Below, one piece after another: positions 1 to 22,377 of a DNA stretch of 22,382 nt (positions are counted from its first letter, which is position 1; the number at the start of each line of letters is the position of its first letter). The translations under genes were made by a program, and so were the position numbers. The stretch comes from a virus. The notes beneath the pieces are model-generated. The model was not told where the DNA came from. It did not search any database and worked only from the letters and a program-made list of their open reading frames with translations. The DNA is taken from the IMG/VR virus record IMGVR_UViG_3300021376_002702, positions 1-22,382 of that record. The stretch is one strand, 5' to 3'.

Positions 1-290
1 CAGTCGCTGCTGCTATCGTAACATTTGCTGAAAAGGCAGAGGCTAATACAGATGCTCCTATGCCATACACAATTGCAGATGCTATTACTGAGGCTGCTGC
101 AGAATTATTTTTATCAGATCCCCTTGCGGTTTTGACGGCGGTAGATTTAGAAGCACTATCTGACCCGTCACAATGGGGTAAAGATATGACAGACGATCAG
201 AGAGAAAAGGCTCAAGAGGTTATAGTTCCTGTAATCTTGGTTTCTAATATACTCGCCTCTGTATCGTCTGCTTTAACAAGGAGGGTATAA
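1..290 (+). CDS. C-terminal part of an unrecognised protein (5'-truncated by window edge)
   Basis: The reading frame is open from base 3 back to the window edge, so the ATG at 60 is probably internal and the real start lies to the left. The visible ~95 residues are acidic and alanine-rich in their first part. They contain a DMTDDQREKAQEV stretch and end in a hydrophobic helix (about VIVPVILVSNILASVSSAL) and two arginines. I do not recognise the family. The position just upstream of small membrane proteins and an endolysin suggests a late virion-associated or lysis-region protein, which is inference. The stop is directly followed by the ribosome-binding site and start of the next gene. Confidence 0.6.
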   Translation, partial: VAAAIVTFAEKAEANTDAPMPYTIADAITEAAAELFLSDPLAVLTAVDLEALSDPSQWGKDMTDDQREKAQEVIVPVILVSNILASVSSALTRRV

Positions 291-291
291 T

Positions 292-663
292 ATGGCCATG
301 GACAAATTTAAAACTATTTTATCTAAAATAAAAATACCAAAGGTTAAGGTACCTAAAATAAATGTACCTAAAATATCTCTACCTAAACCCAAGGTAAATG
401 TTGAGAAGATTAAGCCCTATTTGTCAAAGGTTGTGCCAGTCACAGGAAAGGTCCTAAAAGCCTCTATAAAGGGCTTAAAAGGCTTTATAGGCTGGTTTGG
501 CAAGGCAGTTAAGGAAAGTATAGCCCAAGTCTGGACCCTGCTAGGATTCTTCATTGCATGGCTTACCCTAACGGGAACCGCCCAACAGATTGTGGGCATA
601 GCAACAATAATAGCATTAGTTGTGTGGCTCATAACCATACCCCTTCGTGAAGAAAAAGAATAG
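292..663 (+). CDS. Small membrane protein with Lys/Pro pentapeptide repeats
   Basis: This 123 aa protein has a consensus AAGGAGG at 278-284, 7 bases before the ATG. Residues 15-35 are a fourfold pentapeptide repeat of the form [I/V/L]-P-K-x-x (IPKVK, VPKIN, VPKIS, LPKPK), strongly basic. The middle stays lysine-rich. The last third (about residues 78-118) is hydrophobic with room for two membrane segments around a TGTAQQ turn, ending in a charged REEKE tail. A basic repeat followed by a membrane hairpin could bind DNA, RNA or acidic surfaces at the membrane. The position before the lysis genes also allows a holin-like role. No named family is recognised. Confidence 0.75.
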   Translation: MAMDKFKTILSKIKIPKVKVPKINVPKISLPKPKVNVEKIKPYLSKVVPVTGKVLKASIKGLKGFIGWFGKAVKESIAQVWTLLGFFIAWLTLTGTAQQIVGIATIIALVVWLITIPLREEKE

Positions 664-678
664 TATAATAATAGGACT

Positions 679-864
679 ATGTTGCGTAATATTTTATTAT
701 CCTGTATACTTGTATTAGGCCTTAGTGGCTGTGGATATGACGGTCACTATCGCTATCCTTGCCAAGACCCAAAAAATTGGGAAAGGGCAGAATGTAAGCC
801 ACCTTTGTGTGAGGCTATAGGCCAATGCACAACAGACTTGATCGGAAAGAAGAATGATGAGTAA
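679..864 (+). CDS. Small cysteine-rich lipoprotein
   Basis: This 61 aa protein has a signal peptide: basic start (MLRN), hydrophobic core ILLSCILVLG, and lipobox L-S-G-C with the lipidated cysteine at residue 18. The mature part is only 44 aa and carries four more cysteines (28, 39, 44, 50) with tyrosine-rich and proline-rich stretches, which suggests two disulfides outside the membrane. A TATAAT at 664-669 precedes it. The 3' end overlaps the next gene by 11 bases, and holin-like and endolysin genes follow, so a role in lysis or envelope interaction is plausible but unproven. The product is predicted to be anchored on the outer face of the cytoplasmic membrane. Confidence 0.7.
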   Translation: MLRNILLSCILVLGLSGCGYDGHYRYPCQDPKNWERAECKPPLCEAIGQCTTDLIGKKNDE

Positions 865-1270
865 GAAACAAAAATTAACACCACAAGATTTAGATGCACG
901 ACTAAAATTTATTTTAGGTGTTACACTTGGTTCAATTTTATTCCTAACATCAATAGGAATTCTTTATGGACTTTTATTTGTTACACAACCAGTCGGAGCA
1001 CAGTCAGAAAATGATAAAATGTTTTTTAATGTATTGGGATCAGTAGCAACATTTATTACAGGAACATTAGCAGGACTTCTTATTGGTAACTCTGGTGCTA
1101 AAGATATAATGCAAGCACAGGTAGATAATAAAAAAGTAGATTCAGAAATTAGAATGGCAGAAAACAAGTTAGATGCAGAACTTGATGAAGTTAGAGCAAG
1201 ACTTGCTAAAAAGCCAGACGGCGCAATGCCAGAAGAACAGCCAGTAGATACAAACTGGGATAAGGAGTAG
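854..1270 (+). CDS. Holin-like two-helix membrane protein with coiled-coil tail
   Basis: This 138 aa protein may start at 854 or at the adjacent ATG at 857. A charged N-terminus is followed by a hydrophobic segment at about residues 19-43, a polar loop and a second at about residues 58-78. The C-terminal half is a charged, probably coiled-coil stretch rich in D/E/K (about residues 88-122). The layout of two membrane helices plus a charged C-terminus directly upstream of the endolysin (2-base gap) fits a holin. I assign this from topology and position only. The 3' end carries the AAGGAG that serves as ribosome-binding site for the endolysin gene. Confidence 0.65.
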   Translation: MMSKKQKLTPQDLDARLKFILGVTLGSILFLTSIGILYGLLFVTQPVGAQSENDKMFFNVLGSVATFITGTLAGLLIGNSGAKDIMQAQVDNKKVDSEIRMAENKLDAELDEVRARLAKKPDGAMPEEQPVDTNWDKE

Positions 1271-1272
1271 TT

Positions 1273-1890
1273 GTGGCAGAGCAAGGTACGGCAGAAAAAT
1301 TAATTGAAGTAGCCAAAGGTGAAGTTGGAACTATTGAAGGTCCTAAAGATAATGAAACCAAGTATGGTAAATTTATGAAGGCCAATTTTCAGCCATGGTG
1401 CGGTTCTTTCGTAAACTGGTGCGCTAACGAGGCTGGAGTAAAGATCCCTAATACAGTTTACACTCCAAGTGGAGCAGCAGCATTTAAGAAGGCAGGCGCA
1501 TGGATTGATGGAGACATGGCAGATCCAGATGCAGGAGATATTGCCTATTTTGATTTTCCATCTGACGGGGTAGATAGAATATCTCATGTTGGTATTGTTA
1601 TTGAAGATAACGGTGATGGAACGGTATGGTGTATTGAAGGAAATACTTCCTCAAATAAAAAGGGAAGCCAAAGAAATGGCGGAGAGGTTTGTAAACAACT
1701 TCGTGCCTATAAGAAAAATAAGAAAAATATTTTTATTTCAATTGTAGGGTTTGGTAGACCTAAGTTTGGTAATGCGCCAGTCTCTAATTCAAAATCAGAA
1801 AAAACAAGTTCAAAACCTGTTAAGGTAGGTCCAAAAGTACAAGAGGCTATAGATTTTTTAATATCAAAAGGTTATACTGTTACAAAGTAG
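1273..1890 (+). CDS. CHAP-domain endolysin (peptidoglycan amidase/endopeptidase)
   Basis: This 205 aa protein starts with GTG at 1273, 5 bases after AAGGAG at 1262-1267. Residues about 5-160 form a CHAP (NlpC/P60-like cysteine peptidase) domain. The nucleophile is Cys43 in QPWCGSFVNWC, the histidine is His105 in RISHVGIV, and a polar pair Glu122/Asn124 lies in CIEGN. CHAP enzymes cut peptide or amide bonds in peptidoglycan, so this is the likely lysin. A Ser/Lys-rich linker (about 170-185) leads to a short C-terminal helix VGPKVQEAIDFLISKGYTV that could be a remnant or minimal wall-binding motif. There is no signal peptide, so export probably depends on the upstream holin candidate. Confidence 0.9.
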   Translation: MAEQGTAEKLIEVAKGEVGTIEGPKDNETKYGKFMKANFQPWCGSFVNWCANEAGVKIPNTVYTPSGAAAFKKAGAWIDGDMADPDAGDIAYFDFPSDGVDRISHVGIVIEDNGDGTVWCIEGNTSSNKKGSQRNGGEVCKQLRAYKKNKKNIFISIVGFGRPKFGNAPVSNSKSEKTSSKPVKVGPKVQEAIDFLISKGYTVTK

Positions 1891-1893
1891 TTC

Positions 1894-1922
1894 TTGACTA
1901 AAAATACTAGGTTTGCTATACT
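1894..1922 (+). promoter_or_regulatory. Sigma70-type promoter for the Ntn-hydrolase gene
   Basis: TTGACT at 1894-1899 and TATACT at 1917-1922 are separated by 17 bases, and TGC directly before the -10 box makes it an extended -10. Transcription should begin near 1929, leaving a short leader with AGGAA at 1940-1944 before the ATG at 1950. It starts a new transcription unit after the endolysin. Confidence 0.8.
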
Positions 1923-1949
1923 ATTTGAAAGAGAGAAATAGGAACTGAC

Positions 1950-2474
1950 ATGACTTGCATCGCTGTATTAAGACATGAGGGCAAAGTTTACATGGCTGGA
2001 GATCGTGGAGCATCAGATGATGGAACAATCCTGTCTCTTGAGGCTCCAAAGGTTTGGAAGATAGGTCCTTATCTTATCGGATATGCTGGAGCATTAGACG
2101 GAGAAAGAATTCGTTATAATTTTAAGCCAACAGCACCTACAATTAAAGATACAGATAAATTTATGCAGACTAAATTTATTAAAGAACTAAGAGAATTCTA
2201 TAATGAATTCTGGGTTGATACTACAAAAGACGGAGATCTTGGCTTGATCATCGCTATTCGTGGAGAGATATATGAACATAGTGCCGTAGATATGTCTTTA
2301 TCTAAGTACACACTTCCATATATGGCAATGGGGTCTGGATCAGAGTATGCGTATGGGGTTTTGTATGCAACAGATAAACAAAAAAATGCAAGAAATAGAG
2401 TTCTTCAAGCAGTAAATGCAGCAATAAAATTTAGTCCTTCTTGCGTTGGTCCAGTTGACATTGTCACTGGCTAA
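1950..2474 (+). CDS. Proteasome/HslV-like Ntn-hydrolase
   Basis: This 174 aa protein starts MTCIAV. If the methionine is removed, Thr1 becomes the N-terminal nucleophile. Counting from it, Asp17 (in AGDR) and Lys33 (in APKVWKIG) fall at exactly the Thr1/Asp17/Lys33 positions of proteasome beta subunits and HslV. A glycine-rich MAMGSGSEYAYG segment near residue 128 also fits the fold. The length matches HslV (~175 aa). The expected activity is threonine-dependent peptide hydrolysis inside the cell. No partner ATPase is visible in the window. It has its own strong promoter at 1894-1922, and its last codons contain the next promoter's -35 box. Confidence 0.8.
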   Translation: MTCIAVLRHEGKVYMAGDRGASDDGTILSLEAPKVWKIGPYLIGYAGALDGERIRYNFKPTAPTIKDTDKFMQTKFIKELREFYNEFWVDTTKDGDLGLIIAIRGEIYEHSAVDMSLSKYTLPYMAMGSGSEYAYGVLYATDKQKNARNRVLQAVNAAIKFSPSCVGPVDIVTG

Positions 2475-2483
2475 GAGTATAAT
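2455..2483 (+). promoter_or_regulatory. Perfect-consensus sigma70 promoter with leaderless start
   Basis: TTGACA at 2455-2460 and TATAAT at 2478-2483 are separated by 17 bases, an exact consensus match. The -35 box lies inside the end of the Ntn-hydrolase gene. Transcription would start at about 2490, the A of the next gene's ATG, so that mRNA should have no 5' leader. Confidence 0.85.
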
Positions 2484-2489
2484 TGATAT

Positions 2490-2672
2490 ATGATCGAAGA
2501 AAAAGACTTGGATGAGTTCGGTATCTGGCTTTCAAACGGTATTGAGCGAGGCTGGATAACAGAACCATTCTGTAATACTCATGATGGCGATCCATACATG
2601 ACAGAAGAAGAGCAACAGGAATGGGAAGAAGGCGGAGACCCATGCCAATTAGTTGTAAAAATAAAAGAATAA
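2490..2672 (+). CDS. Small acidic protein of unknown function, leaderless start
   Basis: This 60 aa protein is strongly acidic (EEKDLDE at the start, EEEQQEWEEGGD near the end). It has two cysteines (one in PFCNTHDGD, one in GDPCQLVV) and a conserved-looking IWLSNGIERGWITEPF core. From memory, similar short proteins occur in actinobacterial phages and integrated elements, but no function is known to me. The ATG sits exactly 7 bases after the last T of a perfect TATAAT with a perfect TTGACA upstream, and there is no ribosome-binding site, so translation is predicted to be leaderless. The strong promoter suggests high expression, also into the downstream protease gene. Confidence 0.75.
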   Translation: MIEEKDLDEFGIWLSNGIERGWITEPFCNTHDGDPYMTEEEQQEWEEGGDPCQLVVKIKE

Positions 2673-2697
2673 AACAAACTACAAGCAAAGGATAAAA

Positions 2698-3570
2698 ATG
2701 AAAAAGACACTACTAGCACTACTATCAGCACTACTTGTAATCACAACAGTTCAGCCTGTTCAGGCAAACGATGAAAGAGTCTTAGCAATTATTGACTCTG
2801 CTATTAATTCTAATAACTTTCCTCAAATTATTCATGAGGTTTGCTTTACTACTGTAAGGTCAAAGATTGCTTCCCAAAATATGTCTTGCCCTAACGGAGA
2901 GTTGTTTATGGAGGGCAAGGGTGCAGCATCTGCTCCATGGCCAAGATCAATCAACAACGTTACCTACCATGGCGATGCAATGGTAAAGTCTGCCCTCACT
3001 GTTAATCCAAGTCTAAAGATTGTTTTTATTAGATTTAATGATGTTACATCCCTTGGAAATTCAAGAGGAGATGCAAAGGCATTAGCATTAGCATTTGACT
3101 GGGTATCAAAGAATGCGTCTAAATACAGTATTGATGCTCTTTCAGTCAGCCAGTCTTCAGTAAGTGCAGGAAACCTTTCACTCTGCACAAACGATACAGT
3201 TACTATTAATGCAGTGGCATCTTTGAATGCAAACAATGTTCCAGTGTTTGTTGCAACAGGAAATGATCGACGCAGAGATGTTGTTGGCTTCCCATCATGC
3301 GTTAGTGGAGTCATCGGTGTTGGAGCACTTGGCAATGCAACACAACTTGAAACAGCAACAAACTCAGGTCCTGGACTTGATATGGTTTCTTCTGGAGCAG
3401 TAAACATTACTAAATATAACGGATCACCTTTCACGACTGGTGGAAGTTCTGCAGCAACAGCAGTTTCTGCAGCATCATATGTAAATCGTAACACATTTAA
3501 GACATTTGGCGAGTATTTAAATTCTTTGCCAAAGATTGTAATTGGGTCTGCCTCTTACATTCGCAACTAA
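2698..3570 (+). CDS. Secreted subtilisin-like serine protease (S8)
   Basis: This 290 aa protein has an N-terminal signal peptide (KK, hydrophobic residues 4-17, probable cleavage after VQA at about residue 23). The mature enzyme begins almost at the catalytic aspartate: Asp33 in VLAIIDSAI, His91 in TYHGDAMV, oxyanion Asn189 in VATGND, and Ser251 in a TTGGSSAAT motif that replaces the usual GTSxAxP. All triad elements are present and in order. There is no recognisable propeptide, and the protein is compact. It should act outside the membrane, perhaps on cell-wall or surface proteins during entry, release or exclusion. AAAGGA lies 7-8 bases before the ATG. A protease of this kind is unusual cargo for a phage. 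Confidence 0.85.
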   Translation: MKKTLLALLSALLVITTVQPVQANDERVLAIIDSAINSNNFPQIIHEVCFTTVRSKIASQNMSCPNGELFMEGKGAASAPWPRSINNVTYHGDAMVKSALTVNPSLKIVFIRFNDVTSLGNSRGDAKALALAFDWVSKNASKYSIDALSVSQSSVSAGNLSLCTNDTVTINAVASLNANNVPVFVATGNDRRRDVVGFPSCVSGVIGVGALGNATQLETATNSGPGLDMVSSGAVNITKYNGSPFTTGGSSAATAVSAASYVNRNTFKTFGEYLNSLPKIVIGSASYIRN

Positions 3571-3608
3571 ATATCAGTCCTGGGTATGACTAAAAACTGC
3601 CCACATCG

Positions 3609-3617
3609 TGATATAAT
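3609..3617 (+). promoter_or_regulatory. Extended -10 promoter
   Basis: TGATATAAT at 3609-3617 is an extended -10 element with no clear -35 box. It lies 29 bases before the GTG at 3646 and would give a ~20-base leader containing AAAGGA at 3634-3639. Confidence 0.5.
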
Positions 3618-3645
3618 TAGGTGTAATGCAGAAAGGAAAAATATT

Positions 3646-3879
3646 GTGGAATCAAAAAAAAGAAGTTCTGTAAAATCGTTTAGTTTTGTAATATTTCATG
3701 TCACTGTTGCAACATTAATATTTTCTGCAGCAGTATATGCAATTACTGGTGAATGGGAATATGAATATTTTAAACCCCTTAGTCTGGCATTTTTAACATA
3801 CTTGGGCTGGGAAATTATTTCATATTACTGGCATGAAAGACTTTGGAACATTATCCCTAAATTGAGGAGGTTTAAATAA
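3646..3879 (+). CDS. DUF2061-like small membrane protein
   Basis: I choose the GTG at 3646, preceded by AAAGGA, over an upstream ATG at 3586 that would put the promoter inside the gene. The product is 77 aa. It has a basic N-terminus (ESKKRSSVKS), a hydrophobic segment FVIFHVTVATLIFSAAVYA, a polar loop, and a second segment ending in the signature-like SYYWHERLWN. That ending closely matches YYFHERVWN in the DUF2061 protein at 7162-7377, so the two are probably divergent paralogues. DUF2061 is a two-helix membrane family of unknown function. The gene's stop overlaps the next start (TAATG). Confidence 0.65.
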   Translation: MESKKRSSVKSFSFVIFHVTVATLIFSAAVYAITGEWEYEYFKPLSLAFLTYLGWEIISYYWHERLWNIIPKLRRFK

Positions 3880-3989
3880 TGCGTATTAAAATTATTAAAT
3901 TTGTAGTTAAACTACTTGGTTATGAGTGGTCTGGAGATGAATTAAAACTTCCTGTGTGGCAGGTAAAGGCTAAAACAAAGAAGAAGTAA
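3879..3989 (+). CDS. 36-aa basic peptide, unknown
   Basis: ATG at 3879 overlaps the previous stop (TAATG), with GAGGAGG at 3864-3870 as ribosome-binding site. Its own TAA overlaps the ATG of the FmdB-like gene at 3989 in the same way. The product has an amphipathic start (RIKIIKFVVKLLGY), a WSGDELKLPVWQ middle and a KAKTKKK tail. The tight overlaps on both sides and the good ribosome-binding site are the main evidence for it being real. No family is recognised. Confidence 0.6.
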   Translation: MRIKIIKFVVKLLGYEWSGDELKLPVWQVKAKTKKK

Positions 3990-4174
3990 TGCCAGCATAC
4001 GAATATGATTGTATGGCATGTGCTGTACGATATACAAAAGTTAGAGCAATGTCTGATGAAGATCCAGGGTATACCTGCGAAATTTGCAATAAACCTTTAG
4101 TTCGTGTATACTCAGATATAGGAGTCACATTCAGTGGCTCTGGTTTTTATAAAAATGATAATCGAAAGGTATAA
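3989..4174 (+). CDS. FmdB-family zinc-ribbon protein
   Basis: This 61 aa protein opens with MPAYEYDCMAC, the typical FmdB start (MPxYxYxCxxC). A second CEIC pair follows at about residues 30-33, then LVRVYSDIGVTFSGSGFYKNDNR, which matches the family's hydrophobic end and GSGFYxxD motif. The four cysteines should bind one zinc ion. Members are small predicted regulators of unknown target, common in Actinobacteria and their phages. The start overlaps the preceding stop (TAATG). Confidence 0.8.
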   Translation: MPAYEYDCMACAVRYTKVRAMSDEDPGYTCEICNKPLVRVYSDIGVTFSGSGFYKNDNRKV

Positions 4175-4175
4175 T

Positions 4176-4412
4176 ATGTTTAGTATGCTAAAGAATAAAG
4201 AAGAGGTTAGTCAAAATTGGAAGTTGTCTGCTTTAGATAGGTGCGATAGATGCGGGGCTGAGGCTCTTGTCAAAGTTAATGGGCTAAACGGAGATTTATT
4301 CTTTTGTGGACATCACTATAATAAAATTATGGATAATGCTGTAGGCTATGATAAAATGATGAAGTTTGTTATTTCGATTATTGATGAACGAGAAAAACTT
4401 GTTCAGCAATGA
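4176..4412 (+). CDS. DUF7455-like zinc-binding protein
   Basis: I place the start at the ATG at 4176 (MFSMLKNKEE), 6 bases after AAAGG, rather than at 4134 inside the preceding gene. The 78 aa product contains LSALDRCDRCGAEALVKV and then LFFCGHH. This C-x2-C...C-x-H-H arrangement is the actinobacterial DUF7455 signature and probably one zinc site. A helical tail follows. The family is essentially actinobacterial, so this gene is host evidence. Function is unknown; a transcription-linked role is often suspected. Its stop overlaps the next start (ATGA). Confidence 0.75.
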   Translation: MFSMLKNKEEVSQNWKLSALDRCDRCGAEALVKVNGLNGDLFFCGHHYNKIMDNAVGYDKMMKFVISIIDEREKLVQQ

Positions 4413-5239
4413 ACATTCATTACATGCTAACGGAATCCAGACTTCCCCTTGATGCGCTTTCTCATTACCTAGAAGATTGCAGATATAAATCAGTTTTGTT
4501 AACCTTTCATTCACAACAACCAGACTATTTTGTAAAGTCTGCTGCTTCTCTTGTCCCTGGCCATAAACTAAAATATATGATTGCACTAAGACCATATCAT
4601 GTAAGCCCTCAGTATCTTTCAATGATGACTAAAGCATATAATGAGATAGACAGAAATAGACTTGTAATTAATTGGATTGCTGGTGATTTTCACAATAGAC
4701 CAGATGAGCCCAATATAGAATTAGATGTTTTTTTAGAATCAGAATTAATAGACACTATACAAAAAAGAACTACATTTTTAAGAAATTTTGTAAAAATGTA
4801 CAAATTTTATTGTCCAGTTTCTGAAATACCACCTATGGTTTTTAGCGGATACTCTGATTACACCTTAGAAACTACAAAAATGTATGAGGGAACATCGCTA
4901 TGTATGTTGGACACATACAGAGAGAATATAAAAAAGTTTGACGGAATTGAAAAGAAAATGGTGAGCGCAAATGTTACAATCTTAGAATCAAACAAAGAGA
5001 TTGAAGAATATAAAGAAAAGGTTGTTCCTGTTAATCCTAGACGCACAAACTTTTCAATTATTGGAGATTATCAAACAGTTAAACAAAAAATAATTAATTT
5101 AAAGGATGAAGAAATAACTGATTTACTATTGTTTACTAATACAGACATTTTAGATTCAGACTGGAACGAAGGAAATGATCTGAGAGTAAATAAACTTATT
5201 AAAGAAATAAATATTGAGGCTGCACAAAATGATAGTTAG
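4409..5239 (+). CDS. Luciferase-like / SsuD-like (LLM family) protein 1
   Basis: This 276 aa protein starts in an ATGA overlap. Residues about 55-91 (KYMIALRPYHVSPQYLSMM, then IDRNRLVINWIAG) match the strand-helix-strand found in alkanesulfonate monooxygenase SsuD and related LLM flavin enzymes, where AxRPGxxSP and GRLxxNxxxG bind flavin and substrate. The family forms a TIM barrel using reduced FMN. The protein is shorter than SsuD (~380 aa) and the usual RGD-like start of the SsuD family is not obvious, so activity is uncertain. It opens the sulfur/halogen operon. If active, it could release sulfite from organosulfonates or oxygenate a substrate. A paralogue lies at 11861-12742. Confidence 0.65.
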   Translation: MNIHYMLTESRLPLDALSHYLEDCRYKSVLLTFHSQQPDYFVKSAASLVPGHKLKYMIALRPYHVSPQYLSMMTKAYNEIDRNRLVINWIAGDFHNRPDEPNIELDVFLESELIDTIQKRTTFLRNFVKMYKFYCPVSEIPPMVFSGYSDYTLETTKMYEGTSLCMLDTYRENIKKFDGIEKKMVSANVTILESNKEIEEYKEKVVPVNPRRTNFSIIGDYQTVKQKIINLKDEEITDLLLFTNTDILDSDWNEGNDLRVNKLIKEINIEAAQNDS

Positions 5240-5813
5240 AGATAAAGAGTATAGTTCAGTATTATTTGTTCACATACCAAAAACTGCTGGATCTTCTATA
5301 TCAAAAATACTTTATGATAATAATTTAGATAACTGGAATAGAGTATGGCCAAGACACCACGATCCCTATTCATATTTAAAAGAGGCAAACGTAATAGATA
5401 GTTCTGTATTTTCTTTTGCTGTTGTGAGAAACCCATACACAAGAACATATAGTTGCTATGGACAATATAATAAGACAAACAAAACCAACATATCTTTTAT
5501 TGAATATCTTGAAAACATAAAACAAAATAAAATATCTCTTGCAAGCCCATTACTACATTTGCCACAATCTTTTTATATAATTGACGGTCAGCAGGCCCAG
5601 GTTGATAAAATATATAAATTTGAAAACTTAAAAGAACTTGAGAATGATTTTGGGTGGACTCTCGGCTTTTACAATGTAGGTAGTTATGTGATACAATCAT
5701 ATATAAAAGACTACACAGAAGAGGCAATAGGTATGACGCAGCATCTTTATAATTCTGACTTTGCAAATTTTGGCTACTCAAAAGATTTTAGCACAACTTT
5801 GGAGTCAAAATGA
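5229..5813 (+). CDS. Sulfotransferase 1
   Basis: The start is taken at ATG 5229, overlapping the previous gene by 11 bases; the product is 194 aa. Residues 15-23, HIPKTAGSS, form the 5'-phosphosulfate-binding loop. Residues 65-75, VVRNPYTRTYS, form the 3'-phosphate-binding segment. Both are diagnostic of cytosolic/Golgi-type PAPS sulfotransferases (Sulfotransfer_2-like). The enzyme should move sulfate from PAPS to a hydroxyl or amine of a glycan, peptide or small molecule. The next but one gene encodes an APS-kinase-like protein that could supply PAPS. No signal peptide or membrane segment is seen, so it should be cytoplasmic. Its stop overlaps the next start (ATGA). Confidence 0.85.
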   Translation: MIVRDKEYSSVLFVHIPKTAGSSISKILYDNNLDNWNRVWPRHHDPYSYLKEANVIDSSVFSFAVVRNPYTRTYSCYGQYNKTNKTNISFIEYLENIKQNKISLASPLLHLPQSFYIIDGQQAQVDKIYKFENLKELENDFGWTLGFYNVGSYVIQSYIKDYTEEAIGMTQHLYNSDFANFGYSKDFSTTLESK

Positions 5814-6373
5814 GAAAAACATTAGAAGAATTTAATTTTAAAAAATATCAGAATTATAGTGTTGATGAAATAAAAGAATATATAGATGGCTTTTCTGATG
5901 AGTGGTTTATAAATACATCAAGACAAGACAACTATTATGTACACAAAGACACAACCTCATACTTTGTATATACCGCCGACCTTCAATGGAAAGAGGGAAC
6001 AAGTTTTGTTGTCAATAAAACATCAAACAACGCTGGACTATTAAAACTTCTTGAGCCAATAATTTTAGATTTGGAAAAACTTCATAATGGAACTAGGGGT
6101 ATGGTTCTTTTAATTAAACTAAAGGCAGGACACAATATTGCTGCTCACCATGACTCAGGAGACTATTTGATGATATCAAGAAGACACCACATACCAATAG
6201 TTACAACCGAAAATGTGTTTTTTGGTGTTGGCTCTGATACCGTTAGTATGCAGACTGGAGAATGCTGGGAGATAAATAATTCAAGAACTCACTTTGTAAA
6301 TAACACTAGCAAGATAGACAGAGTTCATTTACTCATTGATATAATGCCAAACGAAGAGATTAGAACAAAATGA
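5810..6373 (+). CDS. Aspartyl/asparaginyl beta-hydroxylase-like 2OG-Fe(II) enzyme
   Basis: This 187 aa protein starts in an ATGA overlap. The C-terminal two thirds match the Asp/Arg hydroxylase cupin fold. Likely iron ligands are His113 and Asp115 (AHHDSG) and His161 (RTHFVNN). RRHHIPI at 124-130 and Arg171 (DRVHLLID) fit the substrate/2-oxoglutarate-binding strands. Such enzymes hydroxylate Asp, Asn or other residues using oxygen and 2-oxoglutarate. In this operon it may hydroxylate the same target that is sulfated; hydroxylation could create the acceptor group. It ends in an ATGA overlap with the APS-kinase gene. Confidence 0.75.
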   Translation: MRKTLEEFNFKKYQNYSVDEIKEYIDGFSDEWFINTSRQDNYYVHKDTTSYFVYTADLQWKEGTSFVVNKTSNNAGLLKLLEPIILDLEKLHNGTRGMVLLIKLKAGHNIAAHHDSGDYLMISRRHHIPIVTTENVFFGVGSDTVSMQTGECWEINNSRTHFVNNTSKIDRVHLLIDIMPNEEIRTK

Positions 6374-7128
6374 TTATACAGATTATAGGCTTACCTGGAT
6401 CTGGTAAGACTGCATTAGCAACGGCACTTAGGGAAAGAATTAATGCCATACATCTTAATGCCGATGAAGTAAGGTCTACGGTTAATTCTGATCTTGGCTT
6501 TACCGCCGAAGATAGGATTGAGCAGGCTCGTCGCATGGGAGAGATGGCAAGGTTAATTGCAAATCAAGGGGTCGCTCCTGTTATTGTTGACTTTGTTTGT
6601 CCTACCAAAGAAACCAGAGAAGCCTTTGGTCCAGCAGATGTTATTGTTTGGGTAGACAGAATTAAGCAGGGTAGGTTTGAAGATACAAATAAAATGTGGC
6701 AAGATCCAGAAAAATTTGATATTAGAATTCTAGATGGATACACATTAAAACAAGAGGCAGATACTGTTATACAGGTGGGTGCATTGTTTGATTGGTCTGC
6801 TCCAACCACATTACAGTTAGGTAGGTATCAGCCTTGGCATGAAGGACATCAGGCCCTCAAAGAAGAGGCTCATAAAAGAACTAATCAAGTTCTAGTTGGC
6901 GTTCGCAACACATACAATACATCAGAAAAAGATCCATTAAAATATCATGAGGTTGCAACATATATTCAGCAAGATAATACATTTAAGAACACATTAATAT
7001 TAAGACTGCCCAACATTACTAACATTGTTTATGGTCGTGATGTAGGGTATAAGATTGAGCAGGTAGATTTGGGGGCAGACATTCATGCTATATCGGCTAC
7101 GCAAAAACGTAAAGAAATGGGTATCTAA
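6370..7128 (+). CDS. APS-kinase domain fused to HxGH nucleotidyltransferase
   Basis: This is a 252 aa two-domain protein. Residues 1-~135 are an APS-kinase/AAA-like P-loop kinase: Walker A GLPGSGKT (7-14), LNADEVR (29-35) and DLGFTAEDRIEQARR (41-55), close to the APS-kinase motif with LGFS-x-x-DR. Residues ~148-252 are a nucleotidyltransferase with GRYQPWHEGH (151-160) carrying the HxGH signature, VYGRDVG (220-226) and ISATQKR (241-247), equivalent to the ISxTxxR motif. ATP sulfurylase also uses HxGH and a GRDxxG motif, so a mini PAPS synthase making APS then PAPS is possible. The GRYQPWHxGH wording also resembles NMN adenylyltransferase (NadM/NadR). It sits in the same operon as a sulfotransferase. 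Confidence 0.75.
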   Translation: MIIQIIGLPGSGKTALATALRERINAIHLNADEVRSTVNSDLGFTAEDRIEQARRMGEMARLIANQGVAPVIVDFVCPTKETREAFGPADVIVWVDRIKQGRFEDTNKMWQDPEKFDIRILDGYTLKQEADTVIQVGALFDWSAPTTLQLGRYQPWHEGHQALKEEAHKRTNQVLVGVRNTYNTSEKDPLKYHEVATYIQQDNTFKNTLILRLPNITNIVYGRDVGYKIEQVDLGADIHAISATQKRKEMGI

Positions 7129-7137
7129 GTTGTTAGA

Positions 7138-7143
7138 TATAAT
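7138..7143 (+). promoter_or_regulatory. Possible -10 box before the DUF2061/halogenase pair
   Basis: TATAAT at 7138-7143 lies in the 33-base gap after the APS-kinase fusion, with no convincing -35. It could add expression of the DUF2061 and halogenase genes. An ATG 6 bases later opens only a three-codon reading frame (M-I-N-stop). Confidence 0.35.
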
Positions 7144-7161
7144 AGGTAATGATAAACTAGA

Positions 7162-7377
7162 GTGGCCTTCATGAAGGTAACTAAGACAAGATCTTTTGTT
7201 AAAGCACTAAGTTATCGCATATGGGCAACTTTTTTTACACTTATTATTGCATACCTTGTGACCAAAAATGCTACAATATCTATAACAATTGCGCTTGGGG
7301 AAATGATAAGTAAAATATTTATATATTATTTTCATGAGCGTGTTTGGAATTACATACAGTGGGGAAGGAAGTCATGA
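7162..7377 (+). CDS. DUF2061 membrane protein
   Basis: This protein is 71 aa from GTG 7162, or 68 aa from ATG 7171; neither has a strong ribosome-binding site. The family hallmark is clear: RSFVKALSYRIWATFFT, a hydrophobic strand into LIIAYLVT, then a second membrane helix ending in YYFHERVWNYIQWG. DUF2061 proteins are predicted two-helix inner-membrane proteins of unknown function. Here the gene lies between an APS-kinase-like gene and a halogenase, and the stop overlaps the halogenase start (ATGA). A possible role in transport or membrane anchoring of the sulfur pathway is inference. Confidence 0.75.
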   Translation: MAFMKVTKTRSFVKALSYRIWATFFTLIIAYLVTKNATISITIALGEMISKIFIYYFHERVWNYIQWGRKS

Positions 7378-8918
7378 TTAAAAGTGTTGTCGTTGTTGGT
7401 GGCGGTACTGCAGGATGGCTAACTGCTCTTAAGGCTAAAAAATCATATCCAGAATTAGACATAACTGTTATAGAATCAACTGACATAGGAATTTTGGGAG
7501 CAGGCGAAGGATCTACCCCCTACCTGACAGACTTTTTTGATCATTTGGACATACCATTATCAGATTTAATAAAAAATTGTGACGCAACAATTAAAAATGG
7601 AATCAAGTTTACAAACTGGAATAATGATGGAGAATTTTATTATCATGGGTTTTCCCAGACAGATAAATCACTTGGTTTTGATGTTTTGTTTGGTAAGTAT
7701 ATTTCCAATAGTCCATTAATTTTAGCAAGTATTGCATTAAACAATAGTGTAAAACAGATTGATTTTACCGAAAAAATTTCAGAAGCAAAAAAAGTTCCAT
7801 TTGTGTTAGACAGTAGCAAAACAAGTTTTGGTTTTGTTGCTGACAAAGACCCTATTTTTAATTATAAGAAAGTAGGAAATATCTCTATACATTTTAATGC
7901 TACAAAATTGGCAAATAGATTAAAAGAAATAGGTCTTAAGAGAGGCATTAATTTAATAGACGAAACAATAAAAAATGTTTTACTAGACGAAAAAAAATAT
8001 GTAAATGGATTAGTGTTGGGCAATAACAATACAGTACGGTGTGATTTTGTTTTTGATTGTAGTGGTTTTCATAGATTAATAATCGGAAAAGTATATGATG
8101 CAAAGTGGAAAAGTTATAAGGACTTTTTACCAGTCGACTCTGCTGTTCCATTTTTTATTGAAATGGCTGACAAGATTCCATCTTACACTGAGGCAATTGC
8201 TATGAAATATGGGTGGATGTGGAAAATACCATTACAAACACGCTTTGGGTGCGGATATGTTTATGACTCGTCTTTGATAACCGAACAACAGGCAGTAGAA
8301 GAGATAGAGGAATTTTTGGGATATGAGCCAACTTATCCTAGGAAAGACAAAGGTGGTTTTAAGTTTAGTGCTGGATGCTACGAAACCCCTTGGATCAATA
8401 ATTGTGTAGCAGTTGGTTTGGCAGCAAACTTTGTTGAGCCACTAGAAGCAACTTCAATTTGGGTAAGTATTGTAGAGTTGACTAAAATATTTGATAATCC
8501 ATTGTGGATCTTTGCTAATTCTGAAGCGGTAAGAGAAGAATTTAATAACAATATAGTTGACATGAACAATAATATTTCTGAGTTTATATATTTTCATTAT
8601 ATGACCTTGAGAGATGATACTGAGTTTTGGAAAAAGTTTTCATACAACAATGCTCCCCAAACTTTAAAACAAAAAATTGACATGTGGAAGCATAGGCTTC
8701 CCAGTAGGTCTGACTCAGGAGAGCACTGGTCCTCTAATAGTTGGGCATTTGTTGGGTCTGCACAAGAGACAATTAACAAGAGTATGGCCAAGGTTTATGT
8801 GGAAAATTCTATAGATTATAAAAAAGGTATAGAGATGTACGACTACTATAAAAGATATCAAGACTACAAATTGTTCGAGTGTGTTGATCATAGAGAATTT
8901 TTGAATGGGTTAAAATGA
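7374..8918 (+). CDS. FAD-dependent tryptophan-halogenase-family enzyme
   Basis: The start at ATG 7374, after AAGGAAG, gives 514 aa. Rossmann FAD-binding motif GGGTAGW is at residues 9-15 and GEGSTPYL at 44-51. The conserved lysine that holds the chloramine or hypohalous species is Lys74 in ATIKNGIKFTNW. The signature WxWxIP is present as WMWKIP (281-286). FVEPLEATS (353-361) carries the conserved glutamate, Glu355. All key halogenase residues are therefore present, and the length fits (~510-540 aa). It needs FADH2 from a separate reductase, not seen here. Substrate may be Trp, indole or phenol groups, free or in a larger molecule. A cyanophage halogenase (VirX1) is the known viral precedent. 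Confidence 0.88.
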   Translation: MIKSVVVVGGGTAGWLTALKAKKSYPELDITVIESTDIGILGAGEGSTPYLTDFFDHLDIPLSDLIKNCDATIKNGIKFTNWNNDGEFYYHGFSQTDKSLGFDVLFGKYISNSPLILASIALNNSVKQIDFTEKISEAKKVPFVLDSSKTSFGFVADKDPIFNYKKVGNISIHFNATKLANRLKEIGLKRGINLIDETIKNVLLDEKKYVNGLVLGNNNTVRCDFVFDCSGFHRLIIGKVYDAKWKSYKDFLPVDSAVPFFIEMADKIPSYTEAIAMKYGWMWKIPLQTRFGCGYVYDSSLITEQQAVEEIEEFLGYEPTYPRKDKGGFKFSAGCYETPWINNCVAVGLAANFVEPLEATSIWVSIVELTKIFDNPLWIFANSEAVREEFNNNIVDMNNNISEFIYFHYMTLRDDTEFWKKFSYNNAPQTLKQKIDMWKHRLPSRSDSGEHWSSNSWAFVGSAQETINKSMAKVYVENSIDYKKGIEMYDYYKRYQDYKLFECVDHREFLNGLK

Positions 8919-9199
8919 AATTTAAAACAGAATGGATAAGAGCCCTAAAAACTATGGGGCACAAGAAGTATTGGAATAAGCCTAATACTGTTGAATTTTT
9001 TGCTTTTATGACAAAAATATTAATTATATTTCCAGGACTGTTGCTTGGAAAACAATGGTGGTGGCTTTACATTTTTGCGCTGATGTCAAGTTTAGCATTA
9101 ATCTGGTCTTCAACAATTAAAACATTGCCAACCATTATATGGTTTAATATCCTGTGGACAATTCTTGCTACAAGTGCTATAATAAAGTATTGGGTATAG
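8915..9199 (+). CDS. Small three-helix membrane protein, unknown
   Basis: This 94 aa protein starts in an ATGA overlap with the halogenase gene. A basic N-terminus (KFKTEWIRALKTMGHKKYW) is followed by three hydrophobic segments at roughly residues 28-45, 47-63 and 70-90, rich in tryptophan. I do not recognise the family. The tight coupling suggests it works with the halogenase, for example as a membrane partner or transporter for substrate or product, which is inference. Confidence 0.65.
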   Translation: MKFKTEWIRALKTMGHKKYWNKPNTVEFFAFMTKILIIFPGLLLGKQWWWLYIFALMSSLALIWSSTIKTLPTIIWFNILWTILATSAIIKYWV

Positions 9200-9969: not shown

Positions 9970-10386
9970 ATGAACGATGCTTTTGGAGCAGTCTTATTGA
10001 CAGGGGTTATGTTGCTGTCTATATTTTTTTATTTTTTTCGGGTGCGAACAAGAAGAGTCCATAGACAAATTGTCAGTCAGTCTATGCTACACCACAGATA
10101 TTCTAGTGGTAAAAAATATAAAAGAAGGCTTAAGCCAAGGACTCAGTCTGTAAAGCATCAAGAGGGTTCTGAGACAAAGGTTATCGTTGTAGACAATGAG
10201 GCATACTGGATTAAAAATAACACATTTTATAAAGCCCCCCTTTTTGATCACAAAATTGACAAAGACTCTGCAGAAAAAGTTGACACAACTAACATGGATA
10301 AGGTACAATTAGATAAGATGTTGTTTATAGTAGACAAACTAACAGAAGGGACAAGTGATGATAGTAGGGGTTCAGGGAACGCCTAA
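9970..10386 (+). CDS. Single-pass membrane protein with basic cytoplasmic part
   Basis: This 138 aa protein has an N-terminal membrane segment at about residues 5-24 (VLLTGVMLLSIFFYFF) followed by a very basic stretch (RVRTRRVHRQ, KKYKRRLKPR) that should stay inside by the positive-inside rule. A short beta-like segment KVIVVDNEAYWIKNNTFYKAP follows, and a helical acidic end. The GGGGG-rich spacer before the ATG at 9970 may serve as a weak ribosome-binding site. No family is recognised. It overlaps the next gene at its 3' end. Confidence 0.6.
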   Translation: MNDAFGAVLLTGVMLLSIFFYFFRVRTRRVHRQIVSQSMLHHRYSSGKKYKRRLKPRTQSVKHQEGSETKVIVVDNEAYWIKNNTFYKAPLFDHKIDKDSAEKVDTTNMDKVQLDKMLFIVDKLTEGTSDDSRGSGNA

Positions 10387-10708
10387 CTTCAATAACTACA
10401 ATATCTTTCTTAGAGCAATGGGCGTAGCCTTGTCAGAATTAAAACCAGAGGAAAAAGAGTTCAAACTTTATTCCGCTGGACCAAATAAAGTAAATGACAT
10501 GGCCATGGAATTTGTAAATCTTTCTGAAAGAGGTATGAGGTCTAGAGGAAAGTCCATAAAACTATTTAGGGTAACTCCTCAATGGCTTGAAGAAAATATT
10601 GATAATTGTGATCACTTTGTCTTTGTTTCTAATCCAAAAGAAAGAATGTCAAACTTAGTTAGTCTGTCAAAATCAAAAAATATTAATACAAACATATACA
10701 ACTTCTAA
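10358..10708 (+). CDS. SLOG/Rossmann-like nucleotide-binding candidate
   Basis: The start is chosen at ATG 10358, 7 bases after AAGGG, giving 116 aa; a GTG at 10355 is possible. The protein begins MIVGVQGTPNFNNYNIFLRAMGVAL, then FKLYSAGPNKVNDMAMEFV and a C-terminal DHFVFVSNPKERMSNLV. The layout of a glycine-containing first strand, a second strand with a Ser-Ala-Gly-Pro turn and a late FVFV strand recalls SLOG/DUF2493-type Rossmannoid folds, which bind nucleotides or derivatives. That call is from fold pattern only. It overlaps the previous gene by 29 bases. Confidence 0.5.
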   Translation: MIVGVQGTPNFNNYNIFLRAMGVALSELKPEEKEFKLYSAGPNKVNDMAMEFVNLSERGMRSRGKSIKLFRVTPQWLEENIDNCDHFVFVSNPKERMSNLVSLSKSKNINTNIYNF

Positions 10709-11860: not shown

Positions 11861-12742
11861 ATGATGAAGTTTTATTATTTTGGTGGAGTTATGGGGGATG
11901 CAGAAAATTTGAAATCTCCGTCAACTTTAAACAAGCATAATTTTTCTGGAGTAATGTTTACGCACGATATTCCAGAAGGAGACATGTTTATAAAGGCAGC
12001 AATAGATATAAAGCAGGGCGAGAATATTAAATACTTAGTGGCGATTCGTCCATATACAATATCCCCACAATATCTTTCTATGATAAATAGATCAATGGAT
12101 AAGATAGATCGTGGAAGGCTTCAGGTTAATTTGATTTGTGGATATATTAAAGACCATGAAAATGGTGTTGGTGGTGTTGTTGGAAACGTAAACGATACAT
12201 CAAGCAATGTTGACAGATCAAACTATATGATAGAATTTCTTAAAACGCTAAATGAAATGAATCAAGACAAGGAATCTCCAGGATATTGGCGTGATCCAAA
12301 CCACATAAACAAGTTAGATGTTTTTGTTTCAACAACAAATCATTATGTTTTTGAAACAGCAAAAAAATATGGACACAAAATTATCTTACCATATCACATA
12401 TATGCTCGTGGAGGCTGGTCTGATTTTTTAAAAGGTCCTTCTGTATCAGTTCCACTCGACTTAGATGGTATGGAAATAATGTTAGCAATTACTCCAATTA
12501 TCAGAAAAACAGAAGAAGAACTTAATTTATTAACTAATCATGTGGTTAGACCAGTATGGAAAAAGGGAGAACTCCCACAGCCCGTTCTTGATGCTGCATA
12601 CTTTACTCACGAGCAATTTGATGATCTTGTAAGGACCCTTGAAAGCAGAGGAATAAACCATATGCTTATCAATGCTGTTCCATCAGAAGAAGTAGAAGTA
12701 ATAGTTCCTTTTATAAAACAGTATACAGAGTCTAGAAAATGA
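11861..12742 (+). CDS. Luciferase-like / SsuD-like (LLM family) protein 2
   Basis: This 293 aa protein starts at ATG 11861 or 11864. Residues 57-94 (KYLVAIRPYTISPQYLSMI, then IDRGRLQVNLICG) align closely with the protein at 4409-5239 and with the SsuD-type AxRPG-x-x-SP and GRLxxN motifs. IDRGRL keeps the canonical glycine that paralogue 1 has lost (IDRNRL). The C-terminal part contains an aromatic YWRDPN and an LDVFVSTTNHYVFETAKKYG segment with a beta-barrel feel. A flavin monooxygenase role is plausible but unproven. The two copies flank the metabolic operon and its downstream unknowns. Confidence 0.65.
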   Translation: MMKFYYFGGVMGDAENLKSPSTLNKHNFSGVMFTHDIPEGDMFIKAAIDIKQGENIKYLVAIRPYTISPQYLSMINRSMDKIDRGRLQVNLICGYIKDHENGVGGVVGNVNDTSSNVDRSNYMIEFLKTLNEMNQDKESPGYWRDPNHINKLDVFVSTTNHYVFETAKKYGHKIILPYHIYARGGWSDFLKGPSVSVPLDLDGMEIMLAITPIIRKTEEELNLLTNHVVRPVWKKGELPQPVLDAAYFTHEQFDDLVRTLESRGINHMLINAVPSEEVEVIVPFIKQYTESRK

Positions 12743-15622: not shown

Positions 15623-16681
15623 TTAGTTGCCCATTGGATAGCCAATTTTATTTTTTACTTTACTTAGAGAGTCTTTGTCTGTTGTTCCCCAGTATCCAAA
15701 ATACTTTCCAGATATTATTTGTTGAAAATTTATTTCAGAGTTAGTTATTTTTGTGTGTAGGTAGTCTGACCCAACCTTATTTGCTTTATGTGTCTTCCAG
15801 TTGTGGCTTTCTCCTAATAAAACAGATACATGTTCTTTAAAATCTTTATCTATATAGATTTGATTTAAAACAGCAATGGTCGGATACTTAGGACTAAAAA
15901 TTTTATAGCCCCTGCTTAAGAGCCTAATAGAATAGTTTGTTTGATCTCCATGGTAATGATCCTCTGGATCATGAAGAACCTCTCTATTTAGTTTTGCTTT
16001 AGAAAACATAAAAGTTCCATGGACTCCGTTTGATTCTTCGTATTCTTTTTTATCTATATAGCAGTCGCCATAAACTATTGGAAAACCTAACTGATCTTCA
16101 ACAAAATTTTCACCTTGTTTTCCATCATAAACAAATTTAAGTTTTGTCATGCCTCTGTTTACTAATTCTTTAGCATTTTTTTCTAAATTTAAGGGATCTA
16201 TTTCAAGTGCTGTTTTGTTATCTTTGTCAATGATATAAAATTTTTCAGGATTTTCATCGTAGTAAGTCCAGATAAATCCACTTGACGCAGAAAGAATTAA
16301 CTTATTTTCATTAATATTTTCTTGTTCTTTAATTTTATTAAAAATATTTATTAGTTGAGTATCCCATTTTTTGCTAAAAAATGTATGAGCATCTATCTGA
16401 AACATGTAGTCAAATTCTTTAAATTGCAACAAGGAGGCGTTCATTCTTCCAAAACCAGTACCCATTGGTGCTGGAGTTATTAGTTCAACATAAAAAATTT
16501 GATTATTATTTAATAAAAAATCATTATCTAGTAAAGAGTGTTCTTTTTTTAGTATGTTATTAAATATACCAAAATAAATTTTGTTTGGATTTTCGGCGTT
16601 AAACAAGGCACTTTTTACAGTCTGCTCTATAAACCTTTCTTCACATGCTGCTATAGGTATAAAAATTGAATCTTTAATCAC
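15623..16681 (-). CDS. GlcNAc-transferase-like glycosyltransferase (polypeptide GlcNAcT / Skp1-type)
   Basis: This 352 aa protein starts with GTG at 16681. AGGAGG for this start is the acceptor strand of the adjacent tRNA-Thr fragment, 5 bases upstream. The N-terminus IFIPIAACEERFIEQTVKSALFNAENPNKIYFGIF and MFQIDAHTFFSKKWD (Asp97/His99) match the GlcNAc family that includes Skp1 GlcNAc-transferase; the D-x-H/D pair binds the metal and nucleotide sugar. A late HGDQTNYSIRLLSRGY segment is typical of the acceptor lobe. It probably adds a sugar to a protein hydroxyl, perhaps hydroxyproline as in Skp1, which is notable given the prolyl-hydroxylase-like genes nearby. Confidence 0.75.
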   Translation of the reverse strand: MIKDSIFIPIAACEERFIEQTVKSALFNAENPNKIYFGIFNNILKKEHSLLDNDFLLNNNQIFYVELITPAPMGTGFGRMNASLLQFKEFDYMFQIDAHTFFSKKWDTQLINIFNKIKEQENINENKLILSASSGFIWTYYDENPEKFYIIDKDNKTALEIDPLNLEKNAKELVNRGMTKLKFVYDGKQGENFVEDQLGFPIVYGDCYIDKKEYEESNGVHGTFMFSKAKLNREVLHDPEDHYHGDQTNYSIRLLSRGYKIFSPKYPTIAVLNQIYIDKDFKEHVSVLLGESHNWKTHKANKVGSDYLHTKITNSEINFQQIISGKYFGYWGTTDKDSLSKVKNKIGYPMGN

Positions 16682-16684
16682 TTG

Positions 16685-16731
16685 AGCCTCCTGTAGGATT
16701 TGAACCTACGACAACCCGCTTACAAGGCGGG
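16685..16731 (-). other. 3' half of a tRNA-Thr(TGT): attachment-site core or tRNA relic
   Basis: On the minus strand the order is anticodon stem-loop (CCCGC-CTTGTAA-GCGGG, 16715-16731, anticodon TGT), a 5-base variable loop, T arm (GTAGG-TTCAAAT-CCTAC, 16693-16709), acceptor strand AGGAGGC (16686-16692) and discriminator T at 16685. The 5' acceptor and D arm are missing; the bases there are the end of the TauD-like gene. Such a 3'-half match starting at the anticodon stem is the usual form of a phage attP that integrates into tRNA-Thr. No integrase lies in the window, so a decayed phage tRNA is also possible. Confidence 0.8.
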
Positions 16732-17526
16732 TTTTTTGTATCCCCATATTCCAACAAATTTTCTATCTATTGGATTAAAGCCACCTGTCACTGCATGTGC
16801 AAGCCTAAATAGATCAACCAAAACAAGATCTCCCTTTTGCCATCTATGAACCATTCTTAAGTCTTCATTTGTAATTACTTCATTATTAAACCAACTACAT
16901 ATATCTGTAAAAGTTTTTTGTTCTTTTTCTGTTGGTGTTTCTCCATTTATAGAAACAAGCGTGTTTGTAGCACCGTCTAACTTGTCTAGCCTCAGCCTTA
17001 TAACTGGCTTATCAGTTATCCAGTGGCGTCCTATTGGCTTGTAGTCTTCAAATTTAATATCAACATCAAACTTACCCATGCCAACAATGCAAGAATCTAG
17101 GAATGATTTCCACTCATCACTAAGTTTTTCGTATAATCTTGATGAGTCAACAAAGTAAGTTTTTCCATTTTCATTATCTGTATTAAAGGTTAGCATGTTC
17201 CATGTTGCAGCAATAATTGGATTGTTATAATAGACATGTTCTATATGCCAAAAAACTATAATTTCATCACTAGTTGTAGTTAAAATATCTTTAACTCTGG
17301 CGTGATCTTCTACATAATTGTCTACTTCGCCAGACTCTTTTTCAAAAAAATTTGACCACCCAAGATTTGATCCAAAAATTTTATTGATTTCGACATGATC
17401 TTGATGCGTTAAATTAGCATTTCTAAACACAACAACTGAATCATTAATAAACTTATTTTTATAAAAATTAAAATTTTCTTTAATTTCTTGTATGCTTGTA
17501 AACTCTATAGGAACTATATTTATCAT
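16720..17526 (-). CDS. TauD/TfdA-family 2OG-Fe(II) oxygenase
   Basis: This 268 aa protein has the TauD layout: FRNANLTHQDHVEINKIFG near residue 35, proximal ligand motif WHIEH at 93-97 giving His94-x-Glu96, and distal His244 in LFRLAHAVTGGF followed by Arg255. In TauD the motif is HxD; here it is HxE, as in clavaminate synthase. The KTYFVDSSRLYEKLSDEW stretch is also typical. It may oxidise taurine-like or other small acids, or a natural-product intermediate. The stop codon TAA lies inside the anticodon loop of the tRNA-Thr fragment. A short leader peptide precedes it. Confidence 0.78.
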   Translation of the reverse strand: MINIVPIEFTSIQEIKENFNFYKNKFINDSVVVFRNANLTHQDHVEINKIFGSNLGWSNFFEKESGEVDNYVEDHARVKDILTTTSDEIIVFWHIEHVYYNNPIIAATWNMLTFNTDNENGKTYFVDSSRLYEKLSDEWKSFLDSCIVGMGKFDVDIKFEDYKPIGRHWITDKPVIRLRLDKLDGATNTLVSINGETPTEKEQKTFTDICSWFNNEVITNEDLRMVHRWQKGDLVLVDLFRLAHAVTGGFNPIDRKFVGIWGYKKPAL

Positions 17527-22360: not shown

Positions 22361-22368
22361 ATAATTCA

Positions 22369-22377
22369 ATTATAGCA
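22369..22377 (-). promoter_or_regulatory. Extended -10 promoter
   Basis: TGCTATAAT on the minus strand (22377-22369), an exact extended -10. Its last T is 9 bases before the ATG at 22360, so the transcript would have at most a 2-3-base leader. Confidence 0.6.

Follow-up and report, generated by a model that had tools for sequence, protein, structure and literature searches.

The halogenase gene and its surroundings

The window analysed here, by which we mean the whole stretch of 22.4 kb from an IMG/VR virus record, carries at 7374-8918 (+) an open reading frame of 514 amino acids, whose ATG start is preceded by a good ribosome-binding site, GGAAGGAAG. The gene encodes a flavin-dependent halogenase (FDH) and lies near the end of a cassette of same-strand genes, which ends with a small membrane protein, TM94. 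Upstream counts out of 60 refer to loci with about 3.5-3.6 kb of upstream DNA, and counts out of 81 to the halogenase family set, made up of the window and 80 viral contigs.

4409-5239, plus strand: luciferase-like/SsuD-like monooxygenase, variable cassette member (TIGR03565, E 1e-6, below its cut-off; 23/60 loci)
5214-5813, plus strand: sulfotransferase-like protein (Pfam PF03567), variable cassette member, start codon uncertain (32/60 loci)
5810-6373, plus strand: Asp/Asn beta-hydroxylase-like protein (Pfam PF05118), variable cassette member (34/60 loci)
6370-7128, plus strand: APS-kinase-like/nucleotidyltransferase-like fusion (phrog_10255 'kinase'), found upstream within 3.6 kb in 46/60 loci
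7162-7377, plus strand: DUF2061 small membrane protein (Pfam PF09834), its stop overlapping the FDH start (ATGA); its cluster lies directly upstream in 51/72 loci
7374-8918, plus strand: FDH, 514 amino acids (reading frame, Pfam, PHROG, PDB sequence and fold matches)
7398-7418, plus strand: GGGTAGW, residues 9-15 (GxGxxG, FAD binding); GxGxxG in 78/81 members, the other three not covering the site
7593-7595, plus strand: Lys74, aligned with PyrH K75 (81/81 members)
8214-8231, plus strand: WMWKIP, residues 281-286 (WxWxIP; 81/81 members)
8430-8456, plus strand: FVEPLEATS, residues 353-361, with Glu358 opposite PyrH E354 and EATS replacing ESTG (alignment, motif counts)
8915-9199, plus strand: TM94, a tryptophan-rich membrane protein of 94 amino acids, its start overlapping the FDH stop (ATGA, 8915-8918) (reading frame, locus comparison, alignment)

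The FDH matched Pfam Trp_halogenase (PF04820) at 337 bits (E 2.3e-100), passing the curated cut-off of 21 bits, and phrog_2928 over residues 3-481 (334 bits, E 2.7e-99). In a PDB sequence search, Trp 5/6-halogenases came out on top (8fov, 235 bits), with the cyanophage enzyme VirX1 (6qgm) at 156 bits. The AlphaFold model (pLDDT 74, pTM 0.81) superposed on PyrH and PrnA structures with TM scores of 0.82-0.85. No placement among non-halogenating monooxygenases was seen, the listed PDB matches all being halogenases or annotated as such. Ratios of dN/dS were 0.07-0.13 in eight pairs; the gene is therefore under purifying selection and encodes a maintained protein. The FDH is real and intact, and the first-pass annotation was right to call it complete.

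GGGTAGW, Lys74 and WMWKIP lie where that annotation had placed them, but its catalytic residue, Glu355, must be moved. Glu355 and Glu358 are both invariant (81/81 members) and align with PyrH E351 and E354, respectively; because PyrH E354, like PrnA E346, is the residue that we take to be the catalytic glutamate, the role falls to Glu358. PDB entry 2jkc is titled 'E346D'. A pseudo-halogenase that has lost its catalytic residues was ruled out by the invariance of Lys74, Glu358 and WxWxIP in the family. The enzyme is thus expected, from its sequence, to be catalytically active.

The halide/tunnel stretch reads EATS rather than ESTG in 81/81 members, as it also does in phages HTVC008M and S-H38 and in a protein from a metagenome-assembled genome (MAG). 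In terms of the motifs given in the accessible part of PMC8407142, the Fx.Px.Sx.G tunnel motif, expected as F.EPLESTG, is replaced by FVEPLEATS, and the overlapping FX[DE]PX[EFL] is present in 81/81. The exchange of ESTG for EATS might mean that the protein acts in vivo as an oxidase rather than a halogenase, releasing H2O2 or loose hypohalite. AhpC-/AhpD-like (CMD) peroxidase genes, which would suit an H2O2-leaking flavoenzyme, lie 0.7-3.7 kb upstream of the FDH on the same strand in 11/80 loci (L040, L048, L052-L056, L063, L070, L074 and L075). However, invariant Lys74, Glu358 and WxWxIP would be superfluous in an oxidase, and the intact FX[DE]PX[EFL] motif also speaks against one, so that we consider this reading highly improbable.

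The window encodes a WhiB protein (PF02467, E 5e-11). Since the window itself carries no terminase, the large terminase was compared in L052, a relative whose halogenase belongs to the same family; it shares 62% identity with the terminases of Streptomyces phages that measure about 128 kb. By these matches the virus is an actinobacteriophage, in agreement with the host group first proposed, and its resemblance to DSL-LC01, a phage from a lake, suggests a freshwater type. A DNA search of window positions 1-8000 against named phages gave no match, and an Rfam scan of the window returned one tRNA and nothing more. Pfam scans of the window reading frames named no flavin reductase.

Many other modifying enzymes are encoded in the same phage. 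Three 2-oxoglutarate oxygenase-like genes, one of TauD type, occupy the right end of the window (16720-17526, 19684-20454, 21683-22369 (-)), together with a GlcNAc-transferase-like gene (15623-16681). Genes 4409-5239 and 11861-12742 are luciferase-like/alkanesulfonate-monooxygenase-like paralogues with weak family matches. The product of 6370-7128 has relatives, 37-40% identical, in five phages of Stenotrophomonas, Xanthomonas and Clavibacter.

The halogenase had at first been linked in an operon to sulfation and hydroxylation, an arrangement that is present locally but not general in related loci. The whole cassette 4409-9199 (monooxygenase, sulfotransferase, hydroxylase, APS-kinase-like protein, DUF2061, FDH and TM94) could form one glycan- or protein-decorating pathway with halogenation as one of its steps. 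Its genes mostly overlap or lie almost end to end, and it is absent as a unit from G083 (L366, 115.7 kb) and G084 (L367), in which the flanking genes adjoin; these two related contigs show the site of a gene island in its natural, empty state. The counts of the sulfotransferase, hydroxylase and monooxygenase (32, 34 and 23 of 60 loci) stand against a single pathway, as does the occurrence of FDH and TM94 beside other genes, without these, in L048-L057 and L021-L028. Such a pathway, demoted from main link to rival after the locus counts, is very unlikely in our judgement.

Distribution and substrate class of the halogenase

A scan of IMG/VR yielded 166 close relatives of the FDH, 80 of which were kept (58-100% identical), and 66 phage records matched it. 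Among freshwater-type actinobacteriophages, halogenases like this one are common. One cellular relative was found, 41% identical and encoded in a gammaproteobacterial MAG (L082). Trp-halogenase-like genes are reported in 20/153 cyanophage genomes in the accessible part of PMC10452541, and an FDH of a lake actinophage, DSL-LC01, appears in that of PMC10611076. These figures do not support the earlier view of VirX1 as the main viral case. The halogenases of phages S-SRM01 and Syn10 (L363 and L085) and, judged by eye, that of L140 sit among tail-fibre/adhesin genes, a setting that hints at virion or receptor modification. In L217, two unlike halogenases, one window-like and one VirX1-like, are arranged head to tail (3992-7089).

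Activity on free tryptophan is tied to a C-terminal motif, Trp4, in the portion of PMC8269204 available to us. According to the same portion, FDHs without this motif (BrvH and the metagenomic MHal2-4) accept indole but not tryptophan, and MibH, which also lacks it, acts on tryptophan in a peptide. Trp4 was absent from all 79 family members that reach the C-terminus, and strict patterns found it in 0/81. A relaxed Trp4-B pattern applied to the whole protein matched 73/81 members, at YYHGF near residue 90, and 0/79 when confined to the C-terminus. Trp1 (AT[IVF][PS]), tested as GEAT[IVF][PS], was likewise found in 0/81 members, with a GEGSTPYL-like stretch in its place. As for Trp2 (HxFG or HPFE), His91 and Phe93 are present in 81/81, the HxFG string occurs anywhere in 11/81 and HPFE in 0/81. 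Because Trp4 is absent in 79/79, the FDH is unlikely, on these motifs, to be a free-tryptophan enzyme.

An alternative substrate would be a small molecule such as indole, a phenol or an aromatic metabolite of the host, halogenated to make or disable a diffusible bioactive compound, with TM94 as the export or immunity protein. Export or protection is often the task of small membrane proteins that are coupled to biosynthetic enzymes. In vitro, indole and phenols are substrates of FDHs that lack Trp4 (PMC8269204), and VirX1 takes many small aromatics (PMC8407142), as far as the accessible parts of these papers go. Pfam scans of the 22-kb window, however, named no biosynthetic cluster, exporter or substrate-making enzyme, and we regard a diffusible product as rather unlikely. 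VirX1 was characterised on synthetic substrates, as described in the available text of PMC8407142. To our knowledge, a natural substrate is known for no viral halogenase.

Association of the halogenase with TM94

The membrane protein encoded at 8915-9199 had already been noted as coupled to the halogenase, and the ATGA overlap bears this out. TM94 has a basic N-terminal part and, in a weak model (pLDDT 63), three predicted membrane helices. It had no match in Pfam, PHROG or NCBIfam; a profile search of the PDB returned chance matches (best E 0.28) and a Foldseek search with the weak model returned nothing (best E 2.5). A relationship to known transporters was dropped after these searches, as was the idea that its third helix, as we presumed, resembles small sugar-transporter-like proteins. 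Tryptophan makes up 8.6% of TM94, as against 1.7% over all reading frames of the loci. In a diverse set of 15 sequences, 23 columns were invariant, among them W20, W49, W50, W64, W81, K34, K69 and N78, and the five tryptophans are kept even in the L216 protein, which is 36% identical. Ratios of dN/dS were 0.06-0.17 in 7/8 pairs, those with unsaturated dS.

TM94 lies directly after the FDH in 77 of the 78 related viral loci with room for it (the exception is L035, and 2/80 loci lacked room), and the two genes, the window included, overlap by 4 nt in 73/78 and by 11 nt in 5/78. The pair is constant and its neighbours vary. Arrangements include DUF2061-FDH-TM94-SNase, SDR or glycosyltransferase-FDH-TM94-SNase-Hsp20 (L048-L057) and c7-FDH-TM94-c68 (L021-L028, L076 and L079).

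The association was also seen from the side of TM94. Two scans queried with TM94 alone (80 loci kept of 567 and of 390 relatives) yielded 69 different TM94 genes. An FDH lay directly upstream of 45, directly downstream of one and within 5 kb of one, and none was present in the stretch for 22. A wider count of 104 TM94 genes, which includes loci fetched through the FDH, gave 77 with an FDH upstream, three downstream, two within 6 kb and 22 with none. Of the 22 genes without a near FDH, 21 come after a primase-like gene. A distant FDH was found in large contigs lacking a near one (L288, 107.7 kb; L278, 79.9 kb; L285/L147, 50.8 kb; L247, 34.4 kb), and none in the 39.5-kb contig L262, which carries TM94. 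In L217, TM94 lies about 45 kb from the halogenase pair. TM94 contigs of at least 40 kb contained an FDH in 17/17 cases (three from a set of 16 records and 14/14 from a second set), non-adjacent in three; the 13 shorter records (<40 kb) of the 16-record set contained one in two cases and none in 11.

The halogenases that accompany TM94 are far from uniform. Across all fetched loci they are 28% to 100% identical to the window FDH. In L277, L282, L276 and L134, the FDH is about 30% identical to that of the window and TM94 75-79%; the best PDB match of the L277 FDH is VirX1 (310 bits). In a tree of 73 FDHs, TM94 carriers were scattered, requiring 12 changes if L217b is counted as a carrier and 13 if not, and a single clade was rejected (AU p 2e-46); this was a quick tree in which the long branches of DSL-LC01, S-SRM01, S-PM2 and L281 make fine placement unsure. 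The association of FDH with TM94 thus holds for distantly related FDHs and in differing gene contexts. Since the C-terminal tails of window-type and VirX1-like FDHs bear no resemblance by eye, no shared TM94-binding tail is evident.

Among 45 contigs with the marker gene 10355-10708, 25 carried both FDH and TM94, one TM94 only, none FDH only and 19 neither; adjacency partly explains these counts, and the TM94-only contig is a 4.6-kb fragment that ends about 40 nt away from TM94. Hitch-hiking as part of the cassette could partly account for the association. That TM94 simply hitch-hikes with one gene block is unlikely, given contexts that share only the FDH, FDHs that are about 30% identical and genomes in which the two lie apart. 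The converse dependence fails: TM94 was found in 11/49 FDH records and was lacking in 38, many of them short. Since many FDH phages are without TM94, FDH activity in itself does not depend on it. WhiB was found in 18/23 TM94 contigs of at least 50 kb; for FDH records without TM94 the figures were 0/3 long viral contigs (49.9, 53.3 and 170.5 kb) and 1/4 named phages. Proteins of about 240 amino acids recur near phage halogenases or TM94 (L138, L140, L147, L261, L278 and L288), those of L138, L140 and L147 matching DUF6065 below cut-off and the rest being alike by eye.

A fixed partner of exchangeable halogenases could itself be the substrate, the FDH modifying tryptophans of the co-translated membrane peptide as MibH does on its lanthipeptide precursor. 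The high tryptophan share, the five tryptophans invariant even in L216 and the constancy of TM94 while FDHs are swapped all favour this reading, as does the action of MibH, another enzyme without Trp4, on peptide tryptophan in the available part of PMC8269204. Most of the invariant tryptophans, though, lie in or beside predicted transmembrane segments, where a soluble FDH would reach them poorly, and genes for a leader peptide, a protease or an exporter were not found alongside. Interfacial tryptophan is also common in membrane proteins. TM94 as the substrate therefore seems to us decidedly doubtful.

TM94 might instead be a halide channel or importer supplying the FDH in low-halide fresh water. 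This would suit a small multi-helix protein with an invariant lysine in its first and an invariant asparagine in its third predicted helix, one that pairs with unlike and even genome-distant FDHs and is absent from the three cyano- and pelagiphage FDH records checked. Yet TM94 has no similarity to any known transporter, and other FDH phages, including the lake phage DSL-LC01, manage without it. A role in halide supply is, in our view, quite improbable.

A proposed membrane module and its relation to known halogenases

The reading that we prefer over TM94 as target, as halide supplier or as protector/exporter is recruitment of the FDH to a membrane target. The two proteins would form a two-part phage module that halogenates a membrane-associated aromatic target other than free tryptophan, a proposal that we put forward tentatively, at slightly under an even chance. 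The FDH would use FADH2 from a host flavin reductase, O2 and halide to form hypohalous acid, and Lys74 and Glu358 would serve to halogenate an electron-rich aromatic group other than free tryptophan. TM94, made by coupled translation, would be a fixed three-helix component bringing the reaction to the membrane. The target may be an aromatic group carried by TM94 itself or, in the envelope of the actinobacterial host, by a protein or lipid, and the most likely outcome would be a changed envelope of the infected cell. Halogenation of a surface aromatic residue, one of the roles first suggested, may still apply. Catalytic activity, membrane recruitment and target class are all inferred, and what the phage gains, for example an altered envelope that shuts out further infection, is guesswork.

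In this module the halogenase would be the swappable catalyst and TM94 the component that cannot be swapped. The distribution suggests that, to the phages, halogenases are interchangeable catalysts grouped around one membrane component that is conserved. A stronger form of the proposal, which we consider unlikely, is a dedicated, horizontally assembled FDH-TM94 phage system that acts on an integral-membrane target, perhaps the TM94 tryptophans, remodels the infected actinobacterial envelope and has had its catalyst replaced several times. If true, this viral halogenase would be the first to have a partner assigned to it and a membrane protein as its substrate.

In its motifs, the window FDH resembles BrvH, MibH, KrmI and the MHal enzymes (group C in the accessible part of PMC8269204), which lack Trp4 and keep the catalytic motifs. 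The known members of that group are bacterial, and the likeness is one of motif. We know of no coupled membrane protein for indole- or peptide-type FDHs without Trp4. Closest by sequence outside the viral family are the FDHs of the pelagiphage HTVC008M (42%) and of L082 (41%), which have EATS in common with it; they differ in that no TM94 was found in the HTVC008M record, where the FDH lies between terminase genes, or beside the L082 gene.

DSL-LC01, an Actinomycetia phage from Dishui Lake, likewise combines an FDH and WhiB in a lake actinophage genome. Its FDH (L083, 11986-13557), however, is 29% identical to that of the window and is followed by a glycosyltransferase rather than by TM94. The protein reads RIEPLDFSS and has lost the second Trp of WxWxIP, and may therefore be no ordinary halogenase.

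The Trp 5/6/7-halogenases PyrH, Tar14, Thal, PrnA and RebH are the best PDB sequence matches and share the fold (TM 0.82-0.85) and the positions of the catalytic Lys and Glu. The window FDH differs from them in lacking Trp1 (GEAT[IVF][PS]) and Trp4 and in its phage context. The first-pass annotation had proposed a phylogeny with VirX1 and bacterial Trp halogenases, and in the quick tree the window FDH stood on a separate branch from both: three PDB Trp-halogenase rows joined the VirX1 branch (value 97), and the window FDH fell outside the VirX1-like clade (value 99). VirX1, from cyanophage Syn10, is also a phage FDH with GxGxxG, Lys, WxWxIP and FxEPLE and without Trp4, but it is 27% identical to the window FDH, has ESTG where the window has EATS, and comes from a phage in whose whole record TM94 was not found. 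By the tree, the window FDH is not a VirX1 orthologue. A licence-limited literature search turned up no publication in which a phage halogenase has a membrane partner; whereas phage FDHs were already known, the TM94 partner is previously undescribed. With halogenases widespread in aquatic phages, TM94 offers a concrete handle on what a viral halogenase does.
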